Positions 3,953 to 64,000 of a stretch of 64,000 nucleotides of DNA are shown here, piece after piece. The translations under genes and the position numbers were made by a program. Within the stretch, counting starts at the first letter, position 1; every line of letters begins with the position of its first letter. Below the pieces are notes generated by a model. The model was not told the DNA's origin. It did not search any database and worked only from the letters and a program-made list of their open reading frames with translations. The stretch comes from Micromonospora sp. WMMD1128 (GTDB lineage Bacteria > Actinomycetota > Actinomycetes > Mycobacteriales > Micromonosporaceae), in contig NZ_CP114902.1 of NCBI RefSeq assembly GCF_027497235.1, positions 2,865,501-2,929,500 on the forward strand, read 5' to 3'.

Positions 3953-4458
3953 GCCACCGGCCAGAACACCAGCCAGGCCGCCATGGCCAGGGTGAGCCGG
4001 GCGGTCCACGCCCACAGCTCCTCGGTCCGCTCCGCGTCGCCGACCAGGGCGATGCCGCCGAGCAGCACCGCGCAGGCGACCGCCCAGCCGAGCATGCCCT
4101 TGCCCCACTCCCGCCACTCGTGCCGGGCCCGGGCCCATCCGTAGCGCGGCGCGCGGCGCGGCGGCGGTCCGCCGGCGAAGCGGTGCGCGAACCGCTCGTC
4201 GGCCCAGCGCACCATGCTATGCCCGAACGCGACCGAGAAGCCGAGGTAGGCGGCGGCGAGGCCGTGGGCGAACGTGGCGGTGCCGCCGCGGCGCAGGTCG
4301 ATGATCGTGGCGGCCAGCAGGACGAGGTCGACGGCGGGCACGGCGAGCAGCAGCGCGGCGCCGAGGCGGGGCCGGCGCAGCGGATACCTGGCGATCAGCC
4401 CGGCGGCCAGGAACAGCCAGAACGCCACCTCGCACGCGACGATGACTCCGATGAGCAT
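3919..4458 (-). CDS. Small integral membrane protein, function unknown
   Basis: A 179-aa membrane protein with about five hydrophobic segments (near residues 3-22, 33-53, 62-82, 115-137 and 148-168) and a basic loop [20 protein letters not shown] do not recognise a named family. I start it at 4458 ([11 protein letters not shown]) because GGGGAGGTCG sits directly upstream; a longer frame reaches 4503 but would run into the promoter region of the TetR gene. It is divergent from the TetR regulator at 4533 and is probably its regulatory target. Its last codons overlap the sirtuin remnant on the other strand. Confidence 0.7.
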
Positions 4459-4532
4459 TCGACCTCCCCGTTTTAGTACGCTGTGCGATAACAACCCTAG
4501 CAATCGCCGTCCACCAGCCCCGGGAGGGCTCC
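4459..4532. promoter_or_regulatory. Divergent promoter/operator region of the TetR pair
   Basis: This 74-nt gap separates the divergent membrane-protein and TetR genes. It contains an unusually AT-rich stretch, TTTTAGTACG...GCGATAACAAC (4471-4495), with a CGC-TGT-GCG core that could be a half-conserved operator. TetR regulators commonly bind such divergent gaps. The palindrome is imperfect, so the exact operator is uncertain. The TetR ribosome-binding site GGGAGG lies at 4522-4527. Confidence 0.35.
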
Positions 4533-5126
4533 GTGCCCAAGATCGTCGACCACGACGCCCGCCGCGCGGAGCTGGCCGAGGCGATGTGGCGGGTGGTCTA
4601 CCGCGAGGGAGTCGGCGCGGCCACGGTGCGCAGCGTCGCCGCCGAGGCCGGCTGGTCGCCCAGTGCCCTGCGGCACTACTTCGCCACCCAGACCGAGCTG
4701 CTGGTCTTCGCGATGGAACACGTGATGGTCAAGGCGGCCGAGCGGCTCACCGCCCAATACCGGACCGGCGCCGCCCGCGACGTCGTCCAGCGGATGCTGG
4801 AGGAGTTGCTGCCGTTGGACCGGCAACGTGTCCGGGAGGCCGAGGTGTGGCTGCTGCTCGCCGCCCGGGCCCAGGTCGACCCGGCGGCCCGGGAACGGAT
4901 GGCCGAGGCCGACGACGGCATCCGCCGCGCCGCCGAGATCGCCGTGGCCCGGCTCACCGGCGAACAACCGGCCGACGACGCCGCGTCCGCCCGCCTGCAC
5001 GCCCTGCTCGACGGCCTCACCCTGCACGCGCTGCTGCACCCCGACCGGATGCCACCGCAACGGCTGCGTGACCTGCTCGCCGCGCACCTCGACCAACTCG
5101 CCGGCCCGAGCCCGACGACAAGGTGA
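4533..5126 (+). CDS. TetR/AcrR-family transcriptional regulator
   Basis: A 197-aa repressor. Residues 9-55 form the TetR helix-turn-helix (AMWRVVYREGVGAATVRSVAAEAGWSP, then LRHYFATQTELL). The C-terminal helical ligand domain resembles the BetI/TetR_C_6 type (VWLLLAARAQVDPAARERM). The GTG start at 4533 is supported by GGGAGG 5 nt upstream. It is divergent from the membrane protein at 3919-4458 and probably represses that gene and itself. The ligand is unknown. Just past the stop (about 5108-5215) another frame reads charged, codon-like sequence, which may be a remnant of something else. Confidence 0.85.
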   Translation: MPKIVDHDARRAELAEAMWRVVYREGVGAATVRSVAAEAGWSPSALRHYFATQTELLVFAMEHVMVKAAERLTAQYRTGAARDVVQRMLEELLPLDRQRVREAEVWLLLAARAQVDPAARERMAEADDGIRRAAEIAVARLTGEQPADDAASARLHALLDGLTLHALLHPDRMPPQRLRDLLAAHLDQLAGPSPTTR

Positions 5127-5222
5127 TCCTCGACGCGCTGCGCCGGACCATCGAGGGCAACCTGGACGCGCATGCCCGGGCGGGCGGTGGCCGCTTCGGG
5201 AACAGGGGACCCTGCTGACCGG

Positions 5223-5483
5223 TCAGATCCAGTGTTCCTCGTCGGGCAGCGGGATCTCCTGGTTCTGCTCCACCGCGTCGGCCGGGGTCAGGTCGTCGCG
5301 GACCGACTCGCCCAAGCCGGCGCGGTCGCTCGGCGGGCGCAGCACGCCCTGCTCGGCCAGGTCCGCGTCGGCCGCCTCGGGCACGGCGTCCGCCACCCGC
5401 TCGGTCGGGCCGACGACCGTCTCGTCCTGCCGCTGTTCCTGCGCGTCGGCCTCCGGCGGGCGGCGCAGCGCGTCCTCGCTCAT
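5223..5483 (-). CDS. Small acidic hypothetical protein
   Basis: An 86-aa acidic protein rich in Glu, Asp and Gln (EQRQDETVVGPTERVADAV). The repeat-like EQGVLRPPSDRAGL segment and the acidic C-terminus PLPDEEHWI resemble the disordered small proteins common in Micromonospora, but I cannot name a family. There are no membrane segments. The ATG at 5483 overlaps the stop of the upstream DUF2267-like gene (ATGA). The two therefore form a translationally coupled pair, which is the main support for its being real. Confidence 0.6.
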   Translation of the reverse strand: MSEDALRRPPEADAQEQRQDETVVGPTERVADAVPEAADADLAEQGVLRPPSDRAGLGESVRDDLTPADAVEQNQEIPLPDEEHWI

Positions 5484-5644
5484 CGCGCCGCCCGCCGTCC
5501 GGTCGGCGCGCTCCGGTCGACCAGGTCGCGCGCCTCCCCGCCGTCGATCCGCAGGGCCAGCGTGCCCCGGGTGACCATGGCGGCCTGCTCCGCGGACACC
5601 CCGCAGCGCGTGGCCACCGCGCCGATGAACTGGTCCTGGTCCAT
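5480..5644 (-). CDS. Short DUF2267-like protein
   Basis: A 54-aa reading frame starting MDQDQFIGAVATRCGVS and continuing AAMVTRGTLALRIDGGEARDL, close to one helical repeat of DUF2267 proteins (MDxDxFIxxVAxRxGVSxxxA...TLxxLxxRIxxGEARDLxxxLP). DUF2267 proteins normally have two such repeats over about 130 residues, so this is a half-length or truncated version that ends in a basic tail (TGRRAAR). Its stop overlaps the start of the acidic gene at 5483 by 4 nt. No function is established for the family. Confidence 0.6.
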   Translation of the reverse strand: MDQDQFIGAVATRCGVSAEQAAMVTRGTLALRIDGGEARDLVDRSAPTGRRAAR

Positions 5645-5908
5645 CTCGCCGCCTCCCTCTGCCGGGCCAGCGGGATTCCCGCGCTCGAGCCGGGCAAACG
5701 GACCGCCCGCCGCGCGCGACGGCGTGGCTCAGGGGCCGATCGTCGCCGCGCAGGTCGGTGAACAGGTCACCGAGGGCGGGCATCGGTCGTACCCCTCCCA
5801 TCGACCACGGATGCCGCAGGGGCGGCCGGGCCGGAAGGCCCGAGGTGCCGCCCGGTGCGGCCGGGAGTAGCGTGCGTCGCGGAAACCCGCAGCGAGGAGG
5901 TCCGGAGA

Positions 5909-6661
5909 GTGCAGCCGACGATCGTGGACGTACCCACCCCCGACGGGACGGCGGACGCCTACCTGGCCCGGCCGGACTCCGGCGGCCCGTTCCCGGGCGT
6001 CCTGCTGTTCATGGACGCGTTCGGGCTGCGGCCCCGGCTGGCCGAGATGGCCGCGACGATCGCCGACCGCGGGTACGTCGTGCTGGCGCCCAACCTGTTC
6101 CACCGTGCCGGTCCCACCCAGCCGGTCGACATGTCCGCCCTGGCCGACGAGAGCCGGCGCGCCGAACTGTTCGGGCGGGTCGGGCCGATGATGGCCGCGC
6201 TGACGCCGGACGCGGTGGCCCGGGACACCGCTGCCTACCTCGACTTCCTGGCCGCCCAGCCGGGTGTCGCGCCCGGTCCGGCCGCGATCACCGGCTACTG
6301 CATGGGCGGCACCAACGCGTTGCGGGCGATCGAGGCCCTTCCGGACCGGATCGCCGCGGTGGCCGCCTTCCACGCCGGGCACGTGGTCACCGACGCGCCG
6401 GACAGCCCGCACCGGGGCGTCGGCGCGGTGACCGGCGAGCTCTACTTCGGCCACGCCGACCAGGACGGGTCGATGACCGCCGACCAGATCGCCGTCCTGG
6501 AGAAGGCGCTCGACGCCGCCGGCGTCACCTACCGCTCCGAGGTGTATGCGGGCGCCCGCCACGGCTACACCCAGGCGGACACCCCGATGTACGACGAGCG
6601 GGCCACCGAGCGGCACTGGGCCGCGCTGTTCGATCTGCTCGACCGCACCTTCCGGGGCTGA
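5909..6661 (+). CDS. Dienelactone hydrolase family protein
   Basis: A 250-aa alpha/beta hydrolase. The triad is of dienelactone-hydrolase type: nucleophile Cys131 in GYCMGG, Asp184 or Asp186 in GHADQDGS, and His218 in GARHGY. Other family marks are the N-terminal PDGTADAYLARP and GYVVLAPNLF. It should hydrolyse a lactone or ester in the cytoplasm; the substrate is unknown because no chlorocatechol genes lie nearby. I chose the GTG at 5909, preceded by GAGGAGG 8 nt upstream, over an ATG at 5855 that lacks a site. It converges on a two-component regulator. Confidence 0.9.
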   Translation: MQPTIVDVPTPDGTADAYLARPDSGGPFPGVLLFMDAFGLRPRLAEMAATIADRGYVVLAPNLFHRAGPTQPVDMSALADESRRAELFGRVGPMMAALTPDAVARDTAAYLDFLAAQPGVAPGPAAITGYCMGGTNALRAIEALPDRIAAVAAFHAGHVVTDAPDSPHRGVGAVTGELYFGHADQDGSMTADQIAVLEKALDAAGVTYRSEVYAGARHGYTQADTPMYDERATERHWAALFDLLDRTFRG

Positions 6662-6677
6662 CCCGGCACCTGCCGCC

Positions 6678-7304
6678 TCAGCCGCCGCGGGCCCACAACG
6701 CCAGGCGTACCCGGTTGGGGCTGCCGGTCTTGGCCATCAGGCTGGTGATGTGGGTCTTCACCGTGGTCACGCCGATGTGCAGCCGGTCGCCGATCTCGGT
6801 GTTGGACAGCCCTTCGGCGACCAGGTCGAGCACGTCCCGCTCGCGGGCGGTCAACTCGGCGGCCCGCCGGGGCGCGCCGGCCCGGGCGTGCACCGCCCGC
6901 TGGACCAGCCGGCGCAGCACCTCCGGGCTGAACGGGCTGTCCCCGGTGGCGGCCCGGCGGATGCCGTCGAGCAGCTCGGCCGGGGGCGCGTCCTTGAGCA
7001 GGAAGCCGCAGGCGCCGGCGGTCAGGGCCGGATAGAGGTGGTCGTCGTCGCCGAACGTGGTGAGCACCATGACCCGGGTGGCCGGCCGGTCGGCGAGGAT
7101 CCGGCTGGTCGCGGTGATCCCGTCCACCCCGGGCATCCGCAGGTCCATCACCACCACGTCCGGCCGCAGCCGGGCGGCCAGGGCGACCGCGTCGCGGCCG
7201 TTGTCGGCCTCGCCGACGACCTCCAGGTCGGGTTGGGCGTCGCAGAGCATCCGCAGCCCGGCCCGGATGAGGTGCTGGTCGTCGACCAGCAGCACGCGGA
7301 TCAC
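6678..7304 (-). CDS. NarL/LuxR-family response regulator
   Basis: A 208-aa response regulator. The receiver has acidic residues VDDQ (7-10), phospho-acceptor Asp54 in VVMDLRMPG and Lys in LLKDAPPAELL. The output domain is LuxR-type HTH (ELTARERDVLDLVAEGLSN...TTVKTHITSL). The GTG start at 7304 overlaps the kinase stop by 4 nt (GTGA), showing coupling to 7301-8521. The receiver and HTH resemble the regulator at 30644-31330 closely in motif order, so these are paralogous systems. Confidence 0.9.
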   Translation of the reverse strand: MIRVLLVDDQHLIRAGLRMLCDAQPDLEVVGEADNGRDAVALAARLRPDVVVMDLRMPGVDGITATSRILADRPATRVMVLTTFGDDDHLYPALTAGACGFLLKDAPPAELLDGIRRAATGDSPFSPEVLRRLVQRAVHARAGAPRRAAELTARERDVLDLVAEGLSNTEIGDRLHIGVTTVKTHITSLMAKTGSPNRVRLALWARGG

Positions 7305-8521
7305 GCCGGCTCCGGCGCGGCCGGGCCGGACCGGGGAGCGGGCCGGTCCGCCCCGTTCCCCGCCGGCAGCACCGTCCGCACCCGCCAGCCGTCGCCGGTC
7401 GGACCGGCCTCCAGCCGGCCACCGAGCACCTCGACCCGCTCCCGCATCCCGACGATGCCGTGCCCGCCGCCGGCGGGCACCACGGCCGGCGCCGCGCCCC
7501 GCCCGTCGTCCGCGACCGCCCAATGCACCGCGCCGTCCACCACGGACACGGTCAACCGGGCCCGGGCCGCCGCGCCCGCGTGTTTCGCCACGTTCGTCAA
7601 CGCCTCCTGGGTCAGCCGCAGCACCGCCTGGCCGCGTACCGCGTCAAGCGTGCCGACCGCCGGGTCCACGTCGGCCTCCACGGTGATCCCGGCCTGCCGG
7701 GCCCGGTCCACCGTCGCGCCGAGCGCCGCCGGCAGCGCCGACGGCTCGATCGCGGTCAGCGCGGCGTCGTCGCGTACGCCGTCCGGCTGGCGGAGGACCG
7801 CGACCAGCCGGCGCAGGTCGGCCAGCGCCGCCGTGCCGGTGCCGTGCACGTCGTCGAAGACCGCACCGACCCGGGGATCGAGGTCGGGCAGCACGTGCCG
7901 GGCCACCCCGACCCGCAGCACCATCGACGCGACGTGGTGGGCGAGCACGTCGTGCAACTCGCGGGCGATGGCGCTGCGCTCGTCGGCGCGCGCGGCCCGG
8001 CTCTCCGACTCCCGCCGCCGCTGCTCCGCCGCCGCCCGTTCCTCGGCCTGCCGGCCCAACTCCCGGGTGGTCCGGACGACCAGGCCGAGCAGCACCGGCA
8101 GGCCGACGGTGACGGCCAGCCCGAACACGCCGGTGAGCACCTTCCGGACCGGGTCGCCGACCAGGTCGCTCACGTCGATCGCGGCCAGCAGCCCGGCCGC
8201 CAGCCAGAACGTCCGGGGCCGGGTGGCCCGCATGGTCAGCTCCAGCAGCGCCCAGCTCGCGCCGACCTGGTTGATCAGCGAGTCGTCGACGAGCGGTAGG
8301 GCCGCCACCAGCAGGGCGCACTGGAGCAGCAGGTTCAGCAGCGGCCGGCGGTGGCACAGCAGAGCCACCGCGAACGCGGCGAGCGCGAACGCCCACTGCG
8401 TCGCGGTGGGCCCGGGCCGGCCGTGCACGCCGACGACCAGGTAGCCGACGCCGCTGAGGTCGAGCAGCAGCATCCGCGCGAGCGTGTCGCGCGCGTCGAA
8501 CAGCCGCCCCACCCAGCTCAC
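7301..8521 (-). CDS. Sensor histidine kinase (HisKA_3 type)
   Basis: A 406-aa sensor kinase with about five to six N-terminal membrane helices (residues 17-155). A coiled linker rich in Glu and Arg follows (EERAAAEQRRRESESRAARADERS), then the HisKA_3 domain with His190 in ARELHDVLAHHV. The ATPase domain has N box TQEALTNVAKHA and G boxes VADDGRG and GHGIVGMRERV. The start is GTG at 8521. It forms an overlapping pair with the response regulator downstream. The signal is unknown. Confidence 0.9.
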   Translation of the reverse strand: MSWVGRLFDARDTLARMLLLDLSGVGYLVVGVHGRPGPTATQWAFALAAFAVALLCHRRPLLNLLLQCALLVAALPLVDDSLINQVGASWALLELTMRATRPRTFWLAAGLLAAIDVSDLVGDPVRKVLTGVFGLAVTVGLPVLLGLVVRTTRELGRQAEERAAAEQRRRESESRAARADERSAIARELHDVLAHHVASMVLRVGVARHVLPDLDPRVGAVFDDVHGTGTAALADLRRLVAVLRQPDGVRDDAALTAIEPSALPAALGATVDRARQAGITVEADVDPAVGTLDAVRGQAVLRLTQEALTNVAKHAGAAARARLTVSVVDGAVHWAVADDGRGAAPAVVPAGGGHGIVGMRERVEVLGGRLEAGPTGDGWRVRTVLPAGNGADRPAPRSGPAAPEPA

Positions 8522-8530
8522 CGCGCCAGC

Positions 8531-8992
8531 CTAGGCAACCGGCGCGGCCGGGGCCACCGCGTCGGTCCCGCCGCGCGTCCGCCGCCACCCGGCCCGGAGC
8601 GCGAGGTGGACGGCCAGGCCGAGCGGGCCCAGCAGGATGGTGAGCACCAGCACCGGCGCGGTGAGCAGGGCCGGGATGCCCCGCTCCCGGGCGTCGGACC
8701 AGATCCACCGCCCGACGAACAGGTCGAAGCCGATCATGTGGGCCCAGGCCGCCGCCGCGCCGTCGGCGGTGCCGAGCAGGTCCCGCAGACCGTCGAGCGT
8801 GGGCGCGGTGACCACCGGCAGCACCGCGCCGAGCGCCGGCAGCACCAGGAGCGCGTAGACAAGCAGGACCGGCGCCACGATCAGCGGCGAGCCGACCACC
8901 CGCGCGGTCCACGACCAGCGGGGCGCCAGGATCATCAGCGCCCAGAACGGCGCGGCGAGGGCGAACGTCAGGCCGAACAGCGTGCCGCTCAT
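8531..8992 (-). CDS. ABA4-like (DUF4281) membrane protein
   Basis: A 153-aa protein with four hydrophobic helices, matching the ABA4-like family (DUF4281): FGLTFALAAPFWALMILAP at the N-terminus, the conserved WAHMIGFDLFVGRWIWSD in the middle and a last helix GIPALLTAPVLVLTILLGP. The plant member is linked to neoxanthin synthesis; bacterial members are uncharacterised. The ATG at 8992 overlaps the upstream membrane gene's stop by 4 nt (ATGA), so the two are one transcript. It ends 9 nt before the start of the kinase gene in the same direction. Confidence 0.8.
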   Translation of the reverse strand: MSGTLFGLTFALAAPFWALMILAPRWSWTARVVGSPLIVAPVLLVYALLVLPALGAVLPVVTAPTLDGLRDLLGTADGAAAAWAHMIGFDLFVGRWIWSDARERGIPALLTAPVLVLTILLGPLGLAVHLALRAGWRRTRGGTDAVAPAAPVA

Positions 8993-9921
8993 CCGACCAG
9001 CACCACCGGGGTACGCCGGGACCGGCGGGCCAGGACCAGCCCGGTGGCCGCCGCGGTGGTGAGCGCCAGTGCCGCCGCCACGGTCAGGGTGAGCCCGTCC
9101 GGGCGTGACAGCGGCTGCCCGCGCAACGCCTGCCAGGTGAGCAGCAGTGTGAGCGCGGCGTACGCGACGCCGCCGACGAGCACCAGCCGGGCCCGGGTCA
9201 GCGCGTCCAGCCGGGCGCCGACGAAGCGGTCGAGCAGGATCGCCAGCAGGGGCAACGCCTGCAACGCGTGCAGCCCGACGAAGTGCCCGACGCGCAGGTC
9301 GCCGCCGGTGGTGCTCCAGCCGACCAGCGGCAGGCCCGGGCCGCCGTCCGGCACGCCGACGCTGTGCGCCCCGTTGATCCCGGCCGGCGCGCCGGCTGGA
9401 CGTTGCATCACCATCGGGACCGCGACGAGCATGCCGAGCAGCGACACCCCGAGGCCGAGCCGGACCGCGTACCCGCCGGCCCGGTCCGGCGTGGGCCGCC
9501 GCAGCAGCGCGACCGCGAGCACGGCCTGGGCCAGGAAGAGCACCATGATCGCCGCGCCCATGATGTCGAACAGCGCCGCGTTCAACGTGGTGGTGCCGTT
9601 GAAGTGGCTTGTGGTGCCGCGGACCACCTGGACGACGATGGCCACCATCTCCACCACCGCCACGGCCACGATCACGGTGGCGGCCCGTTCGGCGAGCCGG
9701 CTGCGCCTCGGCAGCAGCGAGAGCATCCAGGCCAGGGTGACGCCGTAGAGCACGAACGAGAGCGCGAACTTCAACGGCTTGAGCCAGGCGGGCGCGCCGG
9801 TGAGCACCCGGGGGTCGGCGACGACGCCGACCGCGGCGACGACGGTGAGCACCGCCATCGCGGACACGAGGAGCATCAGGGGGCGGTGCCATCCGGCCGC
9901 CCGGTTCCACACGGTTGTCAT
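8989..9921 (-). CDS. Conserved multi-pass membrane protein, function unknown
   Basis: A 310-aa integral membrane protein with about eight helices. Conserved-looking features are PAWLKPLKFALSF near the first loop, GTTSHFNGTTTLN, and GGDLRVGHFVGLHALQALPL with two His that could bind metal or heme. I know this pattern from hypothetical actinobacterial membrane proteins but not with a function. It is co-transcribed and overlaps by 4 nt with the ABA4-like gene. The pairing suggests a shared membrane role, which is inference only. Confidence 0.75.
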   Translation of the reverse strand: MTTVWNRAAGWHRPLMLLVSAMAVLTVVAAVGVVADPRVLTGAPAWLKPLKFALSFVLYGVTLAWMLSLLPRRSRLAERAATVIVAVAVVEMVAIVVQVVRGTTSHFNGTTTLNAALFDIMGAAIMVLFLAQAVLAVALLRRPTPDRAGGYAVRLGLGVSLLGMLVAVPMVMQRPAGAPAGINGAHSVGVPDGGPGLPLVGWSTTGGDLRVGHFVGLHALQALPLLAILLDRFVGARLDALTRARLVLVGGVAYAALTLLLTWQALRGQPLSRPDGLTLTVAAALALTTAAATGLVLARRSRRTPVVLVG

Positions 9922-51408: not shown

Positions 51409-52494
51409 GTGCCCGCGACGACCCTGACCGCCGCCCAGTCCGCCGCCCTGCGGCACGTGCGCGACGTCGCGCTGCGGGACCGCCCGGCCGCGCTCGCCGT
51501 GATCGCGGCACACCTCGCCGACGCCGGCGCCGTCGTCCGGGGCGAGGAGGTCGTCGCGGCGGTGACCGGGTACGGCCGGCTGACCGTCAACTTCCACCCC
51601 GACCGGCTGCTGCGCGACGGCCGTACCGTGGTCGAGGCGCTCGACGCCGAGGGTGTCTACCGCAGCCAGTTCGAAACCGGCATCGGCAACGGCGGACTGA
51701 CCGCGTATCCCGGCGGGGACCGGGACGTCTGGGAGGAGGCGATGTTCGGCGGCGCGTACCAGCGTCCGGGTGTGCTACCCGCGGAGCGTCCGAAGTACGG
51801 CGGCCTGAACCTGCTCGACCATCCCGACGGCGCCTGCCCCCGGTTCGGCTCCTGCCACCTGCGGCTGCGCCCGGAGGTCCTGGCCCGGACGACGTTCACC
51901 TTCGGCGACAGCCACCTCCGGCCGACCGAGGTCGGCACCGCCACCGCCTTCGAGCCGGTTCTCGCCGCGCTGCTCACCTCCACCGCCGACACCGGCGTCA
52001 GCCTGGGCGTGTCCAAGATGGACACCGGCATCCTGCTGCGGACGCTGCTGTCGCGCCGGGAGCGCGCATCGGAGCGGGCCGGCCGCGCGCTCGACGACTA
52101 CATCGAGGCGCAGGTGCACGGTGAGGTCCGCCTCGCCCGCGACGTCGTGGCGGTGGTGGTCGACCCGTCGTTCCGCGACACCGACGTGGGACGCCGCCTC
52201 GTCGGGATCGCTGGCCGGCACGGCTTCGCGTTGCGCTGGCACGCCGGGTTCGAGCTGCCCGTCGACGGCGTCGACGCCGATTTCCGCGGACCGGACATCC
52301 CGCCGCTGGCCGCCCGCGTGCACGCCGAGTTCGGCCGGCCGGGGGAGCCGCTGTACGCGGCGTTGATCGGCCGCGCCGCCGCCTCCCTGGCCCGCGAGCC
52401 GCAGCGTTGGGCCGACCGCGGGCCGGCCGAGTTGACCTGGCAACACCTCAAGCAACTCTGGCACGTCCTGGTGCGGTTCGGCGGTCCGACCTGA
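51409..52494 (+). CDS. DUF3626 domain protein
   Basis: A 361-aa protein of the DUF3626 family, marked by TVNFHPDRLLRDGRTVVEAL, YRSQFETGIGNGGLTAYPGGDRDVWE, KYGGLNLLDHPDGACPRFGSCHLRL and EAQVHGEVRLARDV. NFHPDR and DGACPRFGSCHL are conserved patches that suggest a catalytic or nucleotide-handling site; family members are uncharacterised but are sometimes found with toxins. GTG 51409 is chosen as just before the first conserved helix. The 51179-51408 region before it holds no gene. Confidence 0.85.
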   Translation: MPATTLTAAQSAALRHVRDVALRDRPAALAVIAAHLADAGAVVRGEEVVAAVTGYGRLTVNFHPDRLLRDGRTVVEALDAEGVYRSQFETGIGNGGLTAYPGGDRDVWEEAMFGGAYQRPGVLPAERPKYGGLNLLDHPDGACPRFGSCHLRLRPEVLARTTFTFGDSHLRPTEVGTATAFEPVLAALLTSTADTGVSLGVSKMDTGILLRTLLSRRERASERAGRALDDYIEAQVHGEVRLARDVVAVVVDPSFRDTDVGRRLVGIAGRHGFALRWHAGFELPVDGVDADFRGPDIPPLAARVHAEFGRPGEPLYAALIGRAAASLAREPQRWADRGPAELTWQHLKQLWHVLVRFGGPT

Positions 52495-52703
52495 TCGTCC
52501 CTTTTGTCGGAGTGACGCGCCCGGTGTCCGTTGCTGCGGGTGACCTGGACCGCAGCTCGCGCCTAGACCGACATAACCGGAATGACCGACACACCGGGCT
52601 GGTTGAGTCCCCCGTACCGTCGGCATCCAAACCCGTGCCGCCGGTCGACCCCCGAGGGGCGCTCACCCCGGAGCGCGTCGTAACGATCGAAAGGGCAACC
52701 ATC

Positions 52704-53429
52704 GTGAAGCAGCACGTCGCTCGATGGCTCCCCGCCATCGCGAAGACCGCCGCCGAGAAAACCAGCGGCATCACCCGCAACCGTCGGGCCGTACTCACCG
52801 TCGCCGGCGTGACCGCCCTGGGCGGGCTCGCCTACGGCCCCACCGCCGTCGCCGCCCCGGTGACAAGCGGACCGCACGCCGGCGCCGTGGCCGCCATCGA
52901 CCTGGCCACCGGTAGGAAGTCCGGCACCGAGGTGGCGAAGTCCGGCCTGACCACCGGCAGCGACAAGGTGCCGACCAAGGCCGACCGGCCGAGCCGGGAC
53001 ACGCTCATGCCGCACGGCGTCGAGGGCGCCCAGTCGCGCATCCCGCTCGACGACGCGCAGGTCGAGAATGCCAAGGCCATCGTCGAGGCGGCCAAGGACA
53101 CCGGCGTGGGGGAGCGGGGCGCCGTCATCGGCGTCGCCACCTCACTCCAGGAGTCGAAGCTGTACAACCTGGGTCACCTCGGCAGCTACAACGACCACGA
53201 CTCGGAGGGCCTGTTCCAGCAGCGTCCGTCGTCCGGTTGGGGCACGTCCGAGCAGATCACCGATCCGGAGTACGCCAGCAAGGCGTTCTTCGGCGCGCTG
53301 AAGAACATCGGTGGCTGGCGGGACCTGCCGCTGACCAGCGCGGCGCAGACGGTCCAGGTGTCCGCCTACCCGTACGCGTACGCGCAGTGGGAGGAGCAGG
53401 CGGCGGACATCGTGCAGCAGCTCTGGTGA
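52704..53429 (+). CDS. Exported protein with QESKL domain (transglycosylase-like?)
   Basis: A 241-aa exported protein. A long basic leader (1-32) precedes the hydrophobic run AVLTVAGVTALGGLAYGPTAVAAP. A linker follows, then a conserved domain of about 120 residues: AKAIVEAAKDTG, GVATSLQESKLYNLGHLG, NDHDSEGLFQQRPSSGWG, QITDPEYASKAFFGAL and AQTVQVSAYPYAYAQWE. The Glu in QESKL and the GLFQQRPSSGWG loop recall lysozyme-like/transglycosylase active sites. A paralog is encoded at 53973-54530. The GTG at 52704 has GAAAGGG 8 nt upstream. Confidence 0.75.
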   Translation: MKQHVARWLPAIAKTAAEKTSGITRNRRAVLTVAGVTALGGLAYGPTAVAAPVTSGPHAGAVAAIDLATGRKSGTEVAKSGLTTGSDKVPTKADRPSRDTLMPHGVEGAQSRIPLDDAQVENAKAIVEAAKDTGVGERGAVIGVATSLQESKLYNLGHLGSYNDHDSEGLFQQRPSSGWGTSEQITDPEYASKAFFGALKNIGGWRDLPLTSAAQTVQVSAYPYAYAQWEEQAADIVQQLW

Positions 53430-53478: not shown

Positions 53479-53972
53479 CTTTCCCCGGTCGGGCGTGCCC
53501 GCCCCGAGCCGGGACATTTGGCATGTGCGGGACATTCAGGCCGGTGTGCCCAATGGGCTGATACACCTGTCGCTGTCCCAGTCCCGGCGCGGAGCGCTGA
53601 TACACCCACGACCTTCCACTCATGGCCCGGCGAAAGCGCGGGTGGAACGGTGTGGGCGTCTTCGTGTGCGGGTGGGTGGGGTGTCCGGTTCGGGGGTGGT
53701 GGGTGGCACTCTGGCGGCGGAATCGTCGCGGGGGTGGGGGCGTTGTAACGCGGTGAACGACCGAGGAAGGCCGGCGCGCCCATGCCGCGCGGCCGACCCC
53801 GCCCCCGGGAATGACGGTGGGTAGCCGGTCGTTACACAGTCACTCCGGCCCACCCGCGCCCCGCCCCGCGAAGGCCGCCGGAACCCCCGAACTTTGAGCG
53901 CCTGACGGTGCTCGCCCGCGCGCCGACCACCCCCGCTCGGCGTGTGTGTCGACCCCCGGAATGGAGCCCCCC
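53479..53972. other. Long leader region of the second exported-protein gene
   Basis: These 494 nt contain no gene I can support. There is an 11-bp direct repeat GCTGATACACC at 53557-53567 and 53596-53606. Further on, GTTGTAACGCGGTGAACGACC (around 53738) and CCGGTCGTTACACAG (around 53826) can pair partly. The size and the paired segments suggest a regulatory leader, but it does not match a riboswitch class I can recognise with confidence. Confidence 0.35.
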
Positions 53973-54530
53973 ATGAACACGATTCTGCGTAAGAGTGTCC
54001 TGGGTATCGCTGGTCTGGCGTTCACCGGTGGTGTGTTCGCCGGTCCGATCGCCGCCCACGCCGACACCCCCACCCACACCGGTAAGCCCGTCACCGCCAC
54101 GGCCGTGGTGCAGGCCGAGGGCAAGCAGTCGACTATCGACCTGAACGGTGAGCAGACCGCCAACGTCAAGGCGATCATCGCCGCGACGAAGAAGGCGGGC
54201 CTGCCCGAGCGGGCGGCGGTCATCTCCATCGCCACCAGCTTGCAGGAGTCGAAGTTGGAGAACCTGGGTCACCTGGGCGACACCAACGACCACGACTCGC
54301 TGGGTCTGTTCCAGCAGCGTCCGTCGAGCGGTTGGGGTAGCCCGGAGCAGATCACCGACCCCGAATACTCGACGCTGGCGTTCCTGAAGGGCCTGAAGCA
54401 GGTTGACGGCTGGCAGGACATGCCGCTGACCGAGGCCGCGCAGACCGTCCAGGTGAGCGCCTACCCCGACGCCTACGCCCAGTGGGAGAACCAGGCCACC
54501 GACCTCGTCACCCAGCACTGGAACAAGTAA
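53973..54530 (+). CDS. Secreted protein with QESKL domain, paralog of the preceding gene
   Basis: A 185-aa secreted protein. The signal peptide ends at AHADTP (about 29). The mature domain repeats the paralog closely: ISIATSLQESKLENLGHLG, NDHDSLGLFQQRPSSGWG, EQITDPEYSTLAFLKGL, AQTVQVSAYPDAYAQWE. The shared Glu and the GLFQQRPSSGWG loop suggest a lysozyme-like enzyme or peptidoglycan-binding factor. The ATG at 53973 follows GGAG. The codon use, relatively rich in GGT and CTG, is typical of a well-expressed gene. Confidence 0.75.
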   Translation: MNTILRKSVLGIAGLAFTGGVFAGPIAAHADTPTHTGKPVTATAVVQAEGKQSTIDLNGEQTANVKAIIAATKKAGLPERAAVISIATSLQESKLENLGHLGDTNDHDSLGLFQQRPSSGWGSPEQITDPEYSTLAFLKGLKQVDGWQDMPLTEAAQTVQVSAYPDAYAQWENQATDLVTQHWNK

Positions 54531-62071: not shown

Positions 62072-62722
62072 TCAGCGGGGCCAGGCGGCCATCCGGCGGC
62101 GCACCTCGGCGATTCGCGCCGGGTCCAGCCCGTAGCGGGTGAACCGGCGGTCGGCGAGACCGTCGAGGTAGCGGCCGGCGGCGCGCACGTCGGCGTCCTC
62201 CAGCGCCGGATCGACCTGGCGGGCCAACGCCAGCAGCTCGGTCACCGCGTACCGGTCCAGCGCGGCGGCCACGTCGATGTAGTCGCGTACCTCCCGCCGG
62301 TTGACGAGCGCGGCGGTCTTGTTGGCGATCAGGTCCCGCACGTCCATCACCGGGCCGAAGTCCATCACCACCGGGCTGCGGTGGCGGTCGAGCCGGGCCA
62401 GGCTGAGGCGGATCCGGCGGTCGCCGCGGCTGACCACGAAGTCACGCAGGTCCCGGTCGAAGCCGTCGAACACCTCGCCCAACCCGTCCGGGTCGGCCTC
62501 GTCCACCCGGTAGCCGGCCCGTTCCAGCGCGGCGCGCACGTCGGCGGCCGCCGCGGCGGCGGCGCCCTCGACGTCGGCGAACAGGTCGACGTCCTCGGTG
62601 GGGCGGGTGACCAGGCCGTGCGCCGCCCAGGCCACGCCGCCGCCGAGCACGAACCGGTGCGGGCCGGCGGCGGCCAGCGCCACCCGGGCCACCTCCCGGT
62701 AGAAGTCGTGCGGATGCGTCAC
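62072..62722 (-). CDS. Nucleotidyltransferase-fold protein (AbiEii-like)
   Basis: A 216-aa protein. RFVLGGGVAWAAHGLVTRPTEDVDLFADV has the nucleotidyltransferase pattern hGG...DxD, with Asp-Val-Asp as the metal pair. The C-terminal half (KTAALVNRREVRDYIDVAAALDR) matches AbiEii-type and DUF6036-like minimal nucleotidyltransferases. Such proteins can be abortive-infection toxins when paired with an antitoxin gene. Here the 108-aa protein encoded upstream overlaps by 4 nt (GTGA). The start is GTG at 62722. Confidence 0.75.
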   Translation of the reverse strand: MTHPHDFYREVARVALAAAGPHRFVLGGGVAWAAHGLVTRPTEDVDLFADVEGAAAAAAADVRAALERAGYRVDEADPDGLGEVFDGFDRDLRDFVVSRGDRRIRLSLARLDRHRSPVVMDFGPVMDVRDLIANKTAALVNRREVRDYIDVAAALDRYAVTELLALARQVDPALEDADVRAAGRYLDGLADRRFTRYGLDPARIAEVRRRMAAWPR

Positions 62723-63045
62723 GCGGCGCGCAGGCTCCGGTGCCGGGCCTCCCAGGCCAGGCGTACGCCCCGGGGCAGGTTGAGCAGCGGCCACACCCGG
62801 CGCAGCGTGCCGGCGTGGATCAGCTCCCGCAGGTCGTCCATCCGGCTGGTCTCGCGCAGCACGTTCTCGTACATCCAGAGCAGTTCGTCCGGGTCGGCGA
62901 GGTCGAAGGCGCGTTCGCCGCACCACATCAGGCGCACCGGCAGCTCGACGATGCCGGCGGTGGGGCCGGTCAGCTCGGCCAGGGTGCGCGCCACCACCGC
63001 GGGACGCCCAGGTCGGGCGAGGTACGCGCTGGCGGTGGCGGACAT
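62719..63045 (-). CDS. Small protein paired with the nucleotidyltransferase (candidate antitoxin)
   Basis: A 108-aa protein, MSATASAYLARPGRPAVVARTLAELTGPTAGIVELPVRLMWCG..., with a C-terminal helical part DELLWMYENVLRETSRMDDLRELIHAGTLRRVWPLL. I cannot name a family. Tight overlap (4 nt) with the AbiEii-like gene makes it a candidate partner, as antitoxins precede toxins in type IV-like pairs, but no DNA-binding motif is evident. The helical segment could be a protein-protein interface. Confidence 0.6.
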   Translation of the reverse strand: MSATASAYLARPGRPAVVARTLAELTGPTAGIVELPVRLMWCGERAFDLADPDELLWMYENVLRETSRMDDLRELIHAGTLRRVWPLLNLPRGVRLAWEARHRSLRAA

Positions 63046-63133
63046 GGCATCAGGGTAACCCCTGCCCGGCGTGGCGAGCGCGGAAGTCGGTGACCGGCGT
63101 CACGACGGCCCGGCGGAAGAACCGACCGCCCGG

Positions 63134-63139
63134 TACCGT
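63134..63139 (+). promoter_or_regulatory. Candidate -10 element of the structured leader
   Basis: TACCGT at 63134-63139 places a start point near 63146, just before the first base of the RNA's closing stem (63148). The -35 region (about 63111-63116, GCGGAA) is not recognisable, so this is a weak call based mainly on position. Confidence 0.35.
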
Positions 63140-63147
63140 TGTGCAGA

Positions 63148-63257
63148 GCGTCGGTGTGACCAGTGTCCCCGGGCCTCACCTAAATTGCCTTCGCGGAATA
63201 CCGTTCGGCTGGAGCCGCGTCGCGCCACTCGCCGAGAGGCGACCTGCACACCGACGC
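63148..63257 (+). ncRNA. Structured RNA upstream of formate dehydrogenase (riboswitch or sRNA)
   Basis: The ends GCGTCGGTGTG (63148-63158) and CACACCGACGC (63247-63257) form a perfect 11-bp closing stem around 88 nt. Inside are a CGCGG/CCGCG stem (63192-63196 with 63215-63219) and a TCGCC-GAGA-GGCGA hairpin with a GNRA tetraloop (63229-63242). A strong terminator follows 1 nt later. No protein frame explains this. It is not a tRNA, since it has no T-arm or anticodon arm. A molybdenum-, selenium- or tungsten-related riboswitch is plausible from position, but I do not recognise a known class. Confidence 0.55.
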
Positions 63258-63258
63258 C

Positions 63259-63298
63259 CAGCGCCGCCCCGGTCACCAGGCCGGGGCGGCGCTGTTTT
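63259..63298 (+). terminator. Intrinsic terminator between structured RNA and formate dehydrogenase gene
   Basis: CAGCGCCGCCCCGG (63259-63272) pairs perfectly over 14 bp with CCGGGGCGGCGCTG (63281-63294), with loop TCACCAGG, then TTTT (63295-63298). It lies 78 nt before the gene start, so it ends the upstream RNA unless read through. The unexplained remainder of 63046-63376 has no other gene. Confidence 0.9.
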
Positions 63299-63376
63299 CC
63301 ACTCGACTCGCGAGCCCGGTTCGGCTGGCCTAGTGTGCTCAGTGTCCGCCGATCTCAGCGTGGAGGGGGTGCCCGG

Positions 63377-64000
63377 GTGGGGTTGAAGACGTTCATCCAG
63401 GGTTGGCCGGTCTACCGGCAACTCACCGGCACCGACCCGCTGGGGCGCGGGGCCGCCGCGCAGTCGGCACGCTCCGCCGAGCTGACCGCCCGCACCGAGA
63501 CCGCCGACGGCATGGCCCGGTCGGTCTGCCCGTACTGCGCGGTCGGCTGCGGGCAGCGCGTCTTCCACAAGGACGGTCGGGTCACCCAGATCGAGGGTGA
63601 CCCGGACAGCCCGATCTCCCGTGGCCGGCTCTGCCCGAAGGGTTCGGCGAGCAAGAGCCTGGTGACCAGCCCGCTGCGGCAGACGAAGGTCCGATACCGC
63701 CGGCCGTACGCGACCGAGTGGGAGGATCTGGACCTCGACGTCGCGCTCGACATGATCGCCGACCGGGTTCTCGCCGCCCGCGACGAGACCTGGGAGGACG
63801 TCGACGACGCCGGACGCCCGCTGAACCGGACGCTCGGCATCTCCAGCCTCGGTGGGGCGACCCTCGACAACGAGGAGAACTACCTCATCAAGAAGCTGTT
63901 CACGGCGATGGGGGCGCTCCAGATCGAGAACCAGGCCCGCATTTGACACTCCGCCACCGTCCCCGGTCTGGGGACCAGCTTCGGTCGCGGCGGCGCGACG
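63377..64000 (+). CDS. fdhA: Selenocysteine-containing formate dehydrogenase, catalytic subunit (5' part)
   Basis: This molybdopterin oxidoreductase oxidises formate to CO2. The [4Fe-4S] cluster ligands are VCPYCAVGCGQ and RLCPKGSASKSL. The ordinary reading frame ends at TGA 63944-63946 (residue 190), after GALQIENQARI. In formate dehydrogenases this exact place (NQAR-x-Sec-H) is selenocysteine or cysteine. Translation after the TGA resumes with HSATVPGLGTSFGRGGAT, matching the family (HGPTVASLAPTFGRG). GGAGGGGG precedes the GTG at 63377. No Tat signal is seen in the N-terminal 50 residues, unlike FdnG, so the enzyme may be cytoplasmic. The gene runs off the window. Confidence 0.9.
63944..63975 (+). 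promoter_or_regulatory. Selenocysteine UGA codon and bacterial SECIS hairpin
   Basis: TGA at 63944-63946 is followed, after 12 nt, by the hairpin GTCCCC (63959-63964)-GGTCT-GGGGAC (63970-63975). The GGUCU apical loop is that of the E. coli fdhF SECIS, which also lies 11 nt after its UGA. SelB binds such loops to deliver selenocysteyl-tRNA. Annotation that treats TGA as stop will truncate the gene here. Confidence 0.85.

Follow-up and report, generated by a model that had tools for sequence, protein, structure and literature searches.

The analysed stretch of 64,000 nucleotides (hereafter the window; G000:C1:2865501-2929500, in a genome made up of a single contig of 6.8 Mb) ends inside a gene, fdhA, that almost certainly encodes the catalytic subunit of an FDH-N type formate dehydrogenase (FDH), whose UGA at 63944-63946 would be read as selenocysteine (Sec) through a full sel-dependent route. 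Upstream of this gene lies a second element, which is probably an undescribed stand-alone structured RNA. The gene itself and the position of its UGA are plain from the DNA, which was followed past the window in the locus L001 (G000:C1:2924500-2944400; the window ends at L001:5001). The features of the gene are the following.

63362 to 63366, + strand: GGAGG, a putative ribosome-binding-like site 5' of GTG 63377, from inspection of the sequence
63377 to 64000, + strand: start of fdhA (208 codons in the window), for the catalytic alpha subunit of a formate dehydrogenase of the membrane type (NF041513, TIGR01553, Pfam domains, PDB 1kqf)
63944 to 63946, + strand: TGA, predicted selenocysteine codon, residue 190 (alignment to 1kqf_A, relatives, sole internal stop)
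63959 to 63975, + strand: bSECIS hairpin with a 6-bp stem and a GGUCU loop (fold, conservation in rows with TGA)

Starting at GTG 63377, the frame has 189 codons before TGA 63944-63946, after which it continues as HSATVPGLGTSFGRG. Read through L001, it comprises 1108 codons and ends at a TGA at L001:7704, with 918 codons 3' of the internal TGA, which is the only internal stop. The earlier note had described conserved sequence in frame after the TGA and had advised a look past position 64000, where the frame indeed stays open. The protein matches NCBIfam NF041513 (formate_DH_Act) over its full length, scoring 1969 bits where the cut-off is 1400, and also exceeds the cut-off of TIGR01553 (formate dehydrogenase-N alpha; 929.6 bits, 814.2 required); it carries at full length the three Pfam domains expected of FDH-N (Molybdop_Fe4S4, Molybdopterin and Molydop_binding), and its top match among solved structures is PDB 1kqf, the nitrate-inducible formate dehydrogenase of E. 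coli (E=2e-205). These matches bear out the identity first proposed, a Sec-type formate dehydrogenase. The residue encoded by the TGA is aligned with the X of chain 1kqf_A (NQARI-U-HSATV against NQARV-X-HGPTV), which we take to be selenocysteine, so that the TGA occupies the active-site Sec position of the family, as had been suggested. On the other hand, the expectation that annotation would yield two broken genes or a pseudogene is doubtful, because NF041513 is a dedicated NCBIfam 'exception' model for the actinobacterial enzyme.

The gene order, likewise observed directly, places fdhA, fdhB, nrfD, selC, selA and selB in one cluster. The genes for an FeS beta subunit and a membrane subunit adjoin fdhA; the genes after fdhA lie 2.7-8.1 kb past the window end, with selC-selA-selB 5-8 kb beyond it.

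L001:7697-8743: beta subunit (fdhB), 4Fe-4S; FDH-beta is the best model (181.1 bits; cut-off 334.7, not reached)
L001:8740-9879: NrfD-type membrane subunit; PF03916, 75.4 bits
L001:9926-10017: tRNA-Sec (selC); 73.2 bits (cut-off 47), anticodon UCA by ARAGORN
L001:10045-11337: selA; 401.9 bits, above cut-off
L001:11342-13105: selB; 266.5 bits, above cut-off, with a SelB winged-helix domain
G000:C1:4715273-4716181: selD; 379.5 bits, cut-off 125

The genome thus holds the complete bacterial Sec-decoding trait. All four genes predicted in the earlier note (selA, selB, selC and selD) were found, and selB and selC, whose absence from the genome would have spoken against a selenoprotein, stand in the fdhA cluster. 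The fourth, selD, lies 1.8 Mb away from the cluster, and the motif of its protein, GGGCACK, has a Cys at what is presumably the position held by Sec in some SelD proteins. No relative of the beta subunit was found in the viral contigs scanned with it.

The hairpin after the TGA reads GTCCCC-GGTCT-GGGGAC. A GGTCT-loop hairpin 12 nt after the TGA, as in E. coli fdhF, had been described before; twelve nucleotides is the distance at which the stem begins, and the loop follows 18 nt after the TGA. In the single sequence its fold does not differ significantly from chance (z -0.20), and among 5000 synonymous redraws that kept the codon usage of the gene, 737 fold at least as stably. A 6-pair stem with an RGUCU loop arose at this site in 334 of 20000 synonymous draws, and it occurs nowhere else in fdhA. 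Since neither the single-sequence fold nor the redraws are significant, the SECIS claim rests on comparison. The Rfam SECIS_1 model (RF00031) found no match in the genome, in a search that recovered 0/14 controls.

Two sets of sequences were compared. The family set consisted of 74 loci, namely L001, 70 loci picked from formate_DH_Act matches (30 as returned by the search and 40 chosen for spread), and L118, L120 and L121; 72 of them gave a row (none came from L112 and L118), 60 with TGA and 12 with a Cys codon, and the TGA rows included 35 distinct ones over 54 nt. The named relatives were the best 80 of 584 confirmed ones, with only the fdhA part 5' of the TGA as query. The TGA is present in 80/80 of these best 80 of 584, and so is the full 6-pair stem with an RGTCT loop. 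In the family set, the full stem and loop were found in 59/60 TGA rows against 0/12 Cys rows, the latter keeping 3-5 of the 6 stem pairs and, in one of 12, the loop. The same contrast holds for individual bases: the base 5' of the TGA is T and codon +2 is TCC in 60/60 TGA rows and 0/12 Cys rows, and codon +8 is CTG in 60/60 and 1/12, respectively. Among the named relatives (best 80 of 584), T precedes the TGA in 76/80 and TCC occupies codon +2 in 71/80.

In the stem the third base of codon +5 lies opposite that of codon +9; the two combine in the 60 TGA rows as C-G (41), U-A (15), U-G (3) and C-A (1), and in the 12 Cys rows as G-C (6) and G-U (4), being broken in 2. This pair alone cannot separate the two kinds of row because a standard pair is present in 10/12 Cys rows; it is the remaining stem and the loop that tell them apart. 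In the named relatives (best 80 of 584) the same pair is C-G in 48, U-A in 16, U-G in 9, G-U in 5 and G-C in 2, with a mismatch in 0/80. The mean folding energy of codons +4 to +11 is -10.8 kcal/mol in TGA rows (-15.0 to -5.2) against -4.8 kcal/mol in Cys rows (-8.9 to -3.3), the two ranges overlapping. In 17 distinct rows 99.0% of the stem cells are paired, compared with 27-69% for slid versions, and the covariation score of this subset was matched by 19/500 shuffles. Conservation and covariation are thus seen directly, and by these comparisons the hairpin behaves as a real bacterial SECIS. ARAGORN reported a tRNA-Sec within the fetched stretch of 24 of the 80 named relatives (best 80 of 584); the other 56 say little in this respect, as selC is found in this genome 5 kb downstream of the TGA, and most of the stretches stop at roughly that distance. 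The contrast, within one family, between Sec copies with a complete, covarying SECIS and Cys paralogues lacking it shows which synonymous bases the actinobacterial SelB may need.

Other explanations for the TGA have to be weighed against this record. A nonsense mutation that made fdhA a pseudogene would account for a stop codon that does sit in the frame, and a relative (G191) that also carries a TAG indicates that gene decay or sequencing error does occur; yet the same TGA in 80/80 named relatives (best 80 of 584), the 918 codons intact after it, the synonymous-site constraint on the codons around it and the presence of selC-selA-selB downstream in the same cluster reduce the chance of a pseudogene to virtually nil. 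Near-cognate suppression of UGA (e.g. with Trp or Cys) independently of the Sec machinery finds no specific support, the Cys paralogues with the same surroundings indicating that Cys is tolerable at the site; with a complete sel machinery, mostly in the fdhA cluster, and a complete hairpin confined to TGA copies among the rows examined, it is very improbable as well.

With Sec decoding as the preferred reading, SelA and SelD would make Sec-tRNA-Sec on the selC product, and the winged-helix end of SelB would hold the hairpin with the RGUCU loop, located 12-18 nt past the UGA, and deliver Sec-tRNA-Sec to the ribosome. The Sec would then serve as a ligand of the metal of the alpha subunit, presumably molybdenum (or tungsten), in formate oxidation. 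Both the delivery by SelB through the hairpin and the ligation of the metal by Sec during formate oxidation are established for this enzyme family. The FeS beta subunit would hand the electrons on to the NrfD-type membrane subunit, from which they would probably enter the menaquinone pool. For the enzyme of this genome we infer expression, Sec insertion, activity, the electron acceptor and the metal.

The trait is common in the family. Among 250 genomes drawn from Micromonosporaceae (the family having been inferred from the named relatives), 154 have a formate_DH_Act match above the cut-off and 160 a selB match above it, so that the statement of the earlier note that selenoprotein genes are sporadic does not fit this family. 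Among the matches listed for formate_DH_Act, 12 have no stop, and these 12 are the Cys rows. Several family genomes have more than one copy, either both with TGA or one with TGA and one with Cys: two Sec FDH genes are present in G227 (L120, L121), and one Sec and one Cys FDH each in G021, G032, G048, G058, G104 and G113. In the FDH of G191 (L101/L122) a TAG lies a few codons 5' of the Sec TGA, possibly a sequencing error or the mark of a decayed copy.

Some genomes depart from this pattern. Eight of the 250 (G181, G004, G030, G041, G066, G083, G238 and G243) have SelB at E 1.1e-68 or better together with distant formate_DH_Act matches only (best E 1.4e-39 to 7e-10); the SelB matches of G030 and G083 are probably just under the cut-off. 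The fetched contig of G243 starts just 5' of selC, and FDH may simply be missing from it, while G181 and G066 have tRNA-Sec and selB and no selenoprotein recognised nearby. In five more genomes (G019, G042, G054, G063 and G173) all FDH matches are weaker or partial. At the three selB loci L115-L117 no selenoprotein was recognised near selB, and L117 (G075) presents at 4030-9585 a different sel cluster, in which selB comes after tRNA-Sec, an amino-acid permease gene, a selD-like gene of the AIR-synthase family and selA; a gene for a class V aminotransferase is adjacent. According to the available part of PMC5029168, surveys of the Sec trait found FDH to be the commonest selenoprotein, often near sel genes and horizontally passed, and the part of PMC1794560 at hand describes selenoproteins in actinobacteria. 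Micromonospora, selenocysteine and formate dehydrogenase were not found together in the literature searched. The selenoprotein is a small extension of known biology, a textbook system in a new genome.

The second element sits between a divergent gene starting at 63045 and fdhA, ending about 80 nt 5' of the GTG. It has the following parts.

63138 to 63297, + strand: candidate stand-alone structured RNA (model R1), about 160 nt; R1 match of 184.6 bits at G000:C1:2928638-2928797
63148 to 63158, + strand: putative closing helix P1, 5' arm GCGUCGGUGUG (arm-permutation test)
63192 to 63219, + strand: putative helix P2, CGCGG...CCGCG (arms 63192-63196 and 63215-63219); 2/5 pairs changed on both sides, 96.7% of cells paired
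63230 to 63241, + strand: putative hairpin P4, CGCC-GAGA-GGCG; 100% of cells paired and almost invariant, weak evidence alone
63247 to 63257, + strand: putative closing helix P1, 3' arm CACACCGACGC (arm-permutation test)
63260 to 63298, + strand: terminator-like hairpin AGCGCCGCCCCGG...CCGGGGCGGCGCT, then GTTTT; both-side changes in up to 16/33 sequences

The stretch 63130-63300 folds at -91.3 kcal/mol against -71.2 kcal/mol in shuffles (z -4.73), and 0/200 shuffles were as good. Comparison of copies points in the same direction. From 39 extracted cores 36 were aligned (L186, L187 and L200 were dropped as near-duplicates), and P1, P2 and P4 were set by eye on alignment A4 and then counted, leaving the RNAalifold structures of A2 (in R1) and of the realignment unused. 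P1 has 33 distinct 5' arms among the 36 copies, and the score of each 5' arm with its own 3' arm averages 30.5 (lowest 20.5), compared with 20.3 (sd 0.76, max 23.4) when the 3' arms were permuted 1000 times; this test is alignment-free, the best helix of L189, L193 and L202 lying further out than that of other rows. On the 36-core alignment 89.9% of cells pair, against 82.5% in shuffles and 30-47% in slides, and both-side changes are seen in 58 cells, against 18.8 in shuffles, neither value being reached by any of 500 shuffles. Two weaker measures, the number of pairs changed on both sides and that of further pair types, were reached by 17/500 and 41/500 shuffles, respectively. P1 is only 83% paired in this count because its register is shifted in some rows. 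P2 shows the exchanges G-C/A-U and C-G/G-C/U-A/A-U, a small inner helix has no both-side change, and the terminator-like hairpin, absent from the output of a strict terminator scan, keeps its pairing as its sequence varies. Kinship can inflate such covariation counts; the arms of P1 differ strongly between families.

In a BLAST search of 61 genomes the RNA was found in all 37 of the same genus, the source included, with a best match of at least 146 bits in each and two or three strong copies in many; the weaker matches in other genomes consist partly of a GC-rich hairpin only. The model R1, built from 33 of 58 collected copies, matches 64/296 genomes of the class Actinomycetes with 1-4 copies each (one in the source genome) and 7/198 genomes of the phylum, all 7 from the class, in searches with rough E-values and stricter filters under which weak matches are lost. 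Copies come in groups of two or three at L285, L286, L287, L288 and G391:C26, separated by distances from a few hundred bases up to a few thousand. Partial matches occur in 67 actinobacterial plasmid records, none covering 80% of the query, and there were 0 matches in 50,697 phage records, on which ground a virus-borne origin was set aside. Rfam 15 gave no family at the gathering cut-off for the window stretch (best 29.5 bits against 72.2), nor at the cut-off in 20 other loci with copies of the RNA, and an rRNA or tRNA tail was accordingly rejected as the identity of the RNA; in a second group of 20 loci, a search up to E 0.01 reported three tRNA matches only. Five of its core strings were absent from the literature searched, and nothing in that literature, including the available parts of PMC9130861 and PMC11109978, was recognised as this RNA, which could still be the same as a numbered Streptomyces sRNA.

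Its surroundings vary. At 23 of 50 loci examined an FDH gene lies downstream on the same strand, and at the other 27 none was recognised within about 1.5 kb after the RNA. At twelve of the 50, a DAHP-synthase-like gene has the RNA at its 3' end, in one orientation at seven (L133, L141, L144, L145, L150, L159 and L161) and in the other at five (L130, L134, L143, L148 and L153); at further loci a UvrA-like gene, or one with the string LFQQRPSSGWG, is close by. The names DAHP-synthase-like and UvrA-like are our assumption from sequence motifs. The window itself holds two neighbouring genes that share LFQQRPSSGWG (52407-53429 and 53946-54530, the latter with no Pfam match), relatives of which flank the RNA in several loci. 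Seen from the enzyme, the RNA is upstream in 19 of 80 named FDH loci (best 80 of 584), and only in Micromonospora, Verrucosispora and one unnamed member of Micromonosporaceae; at one more named locus, L275, it is on the opposite strand. Within the same best 80 of 584, 59 loci have no RNA in at least 600 nt of upstream sequence and 2 more have none in a shorter one. In other families the neighbours are unrelated and often convergent, and on three plasmids the RNA lies between listed genes, in a gene table that is incomplete and has no entry for a fourth plasmid record. Ten wider neighbourhoods, in six of which a sequence pattern found the RNA and four of which were fetched around R1 matches, share one small regulator-like gene family in two cases and no recurring transposase family. 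A tight link to one partner gene was discarded, there being no constant neighbour across the loci examined. Two small adjacent genes on the - strand (62072-63045), the larger of which is presumably nucleotidyltransferase-like by its look, may form a toxin-antitoxin-like pair.

On balance we lean, at slightly better than even, towards an undescribed class of RNA in Actinomycetes, about 110 nt long and closed by a variable complementary helix around the near-invariant core GUGUCCCCGGGCCUC...GCCUUCGCGGAAUACCG...GGCUGGAGCCGCG...CGCCGAGAGGCGACC, with its own terminator and 1-4 copies at unrelated sites, acting in trans or via a conserved protein; in Micromonospora one copy would often stand directly 5' of the Sec formate dehydrogenase operon. 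Action in trans, on target RNAs or by way of a bound protein, is a guess. The copies could instead be repeat or mobile DNA, with inverted ends that mimic the helix, rather than a functional RNA. This would agree with 1-4 copies per genome at unrelated and sometimes clustered intergenic places, with the occurrence of either orientation at the DAHP-synthase-like gene (7 against 5 loci), with the partial matches on 67 actinobacterial plasmid records, and with an IS5 transposase about 2.3 kb off on one plasmid and a gene about 2 kb off in L287 that looks integrase-like. We consider it rather unlikely, in view of a core that stays near-invariant from family to family even as P1 and the terminator-like hairpin change without losing their pairing, of the lack of a recurrent transposase family in the ten wider neighbourhoods and of the 50,697 phage records with no match. 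A role as 5' leader to the formate dehydrogenase operon, either riboswitch or attenuator, would suit the same-strand FDH at 23/50 loci, the RNA ahead of 19/80 named FDH loci (best 80 of 584) and a terminator-like hairpin ending about 80 nt 5' of the GTG. Against it stand the 27/50 loci with no FDH recognised within about 1.5 kb, the unrelated and often convergent neighbours in other families, and the 59 named FDH loci (best 80 of 584) with at least 600 nt of upstream sequence and no RNA; an FDH-specific leader was rejected on these grounds, and a leader function at this operon appears quite improbable. If confirmed, the undescribed class would add to the curated library searched (Rfam 15) an RNA that it lacks and that is widespread among antibiotic-producing actinobacteria.

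Among known systems, E. coli FdnG, the FDH-N alpha subunit of 1kqf, belongs to the same family (E=2e-205), with its Sec aligned to the TGA, and an FeS beta subunit is found here too. The alpha subunit of E. coli FDH-N is exported by the Tat pathway, whereas a simple pattern for the twin-arginine motif (RRx[FLVI][LMIVF]) found none in the first 60 residues of the protein encoded here; its active site is therefore probably cytoplasmic, unlike that of E. coli FDH-N, in a variant arrangement. The third subunit is likewise different, being of NrfD type here and a cytochrome b in E. coli FDH-N. In the features tested no difference was found from the formate_DH_Act family, to which the likeness is full-length (1969 bits). 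The bSECIS of E. coli fdhF, whose sequence was checked at 100% identity, has GGTCT 18 nt after the UGA, as does the hairpin described here, although the six pairs of ours are uninterrupted, with no counterpart of the U that bulges out of the stem in E. coli. As for the upstream RNA, Ms1/scr3559 is also an intergenic actinobacterial RNA, tied to a HAD-hydrolase neighbour in the available part of PMC9130861; ours has no constant neighbour and no Rfam match at the cut-off, and is set apart by this description, not by sequence. Finally, the Sec trait of bacteria, as presented in the part of PMC5029168 at hand, places sel genes near FDH, which is likewise the case here for selC, selA and selB, whereas selD lies at a distance of 1.8 Mb.
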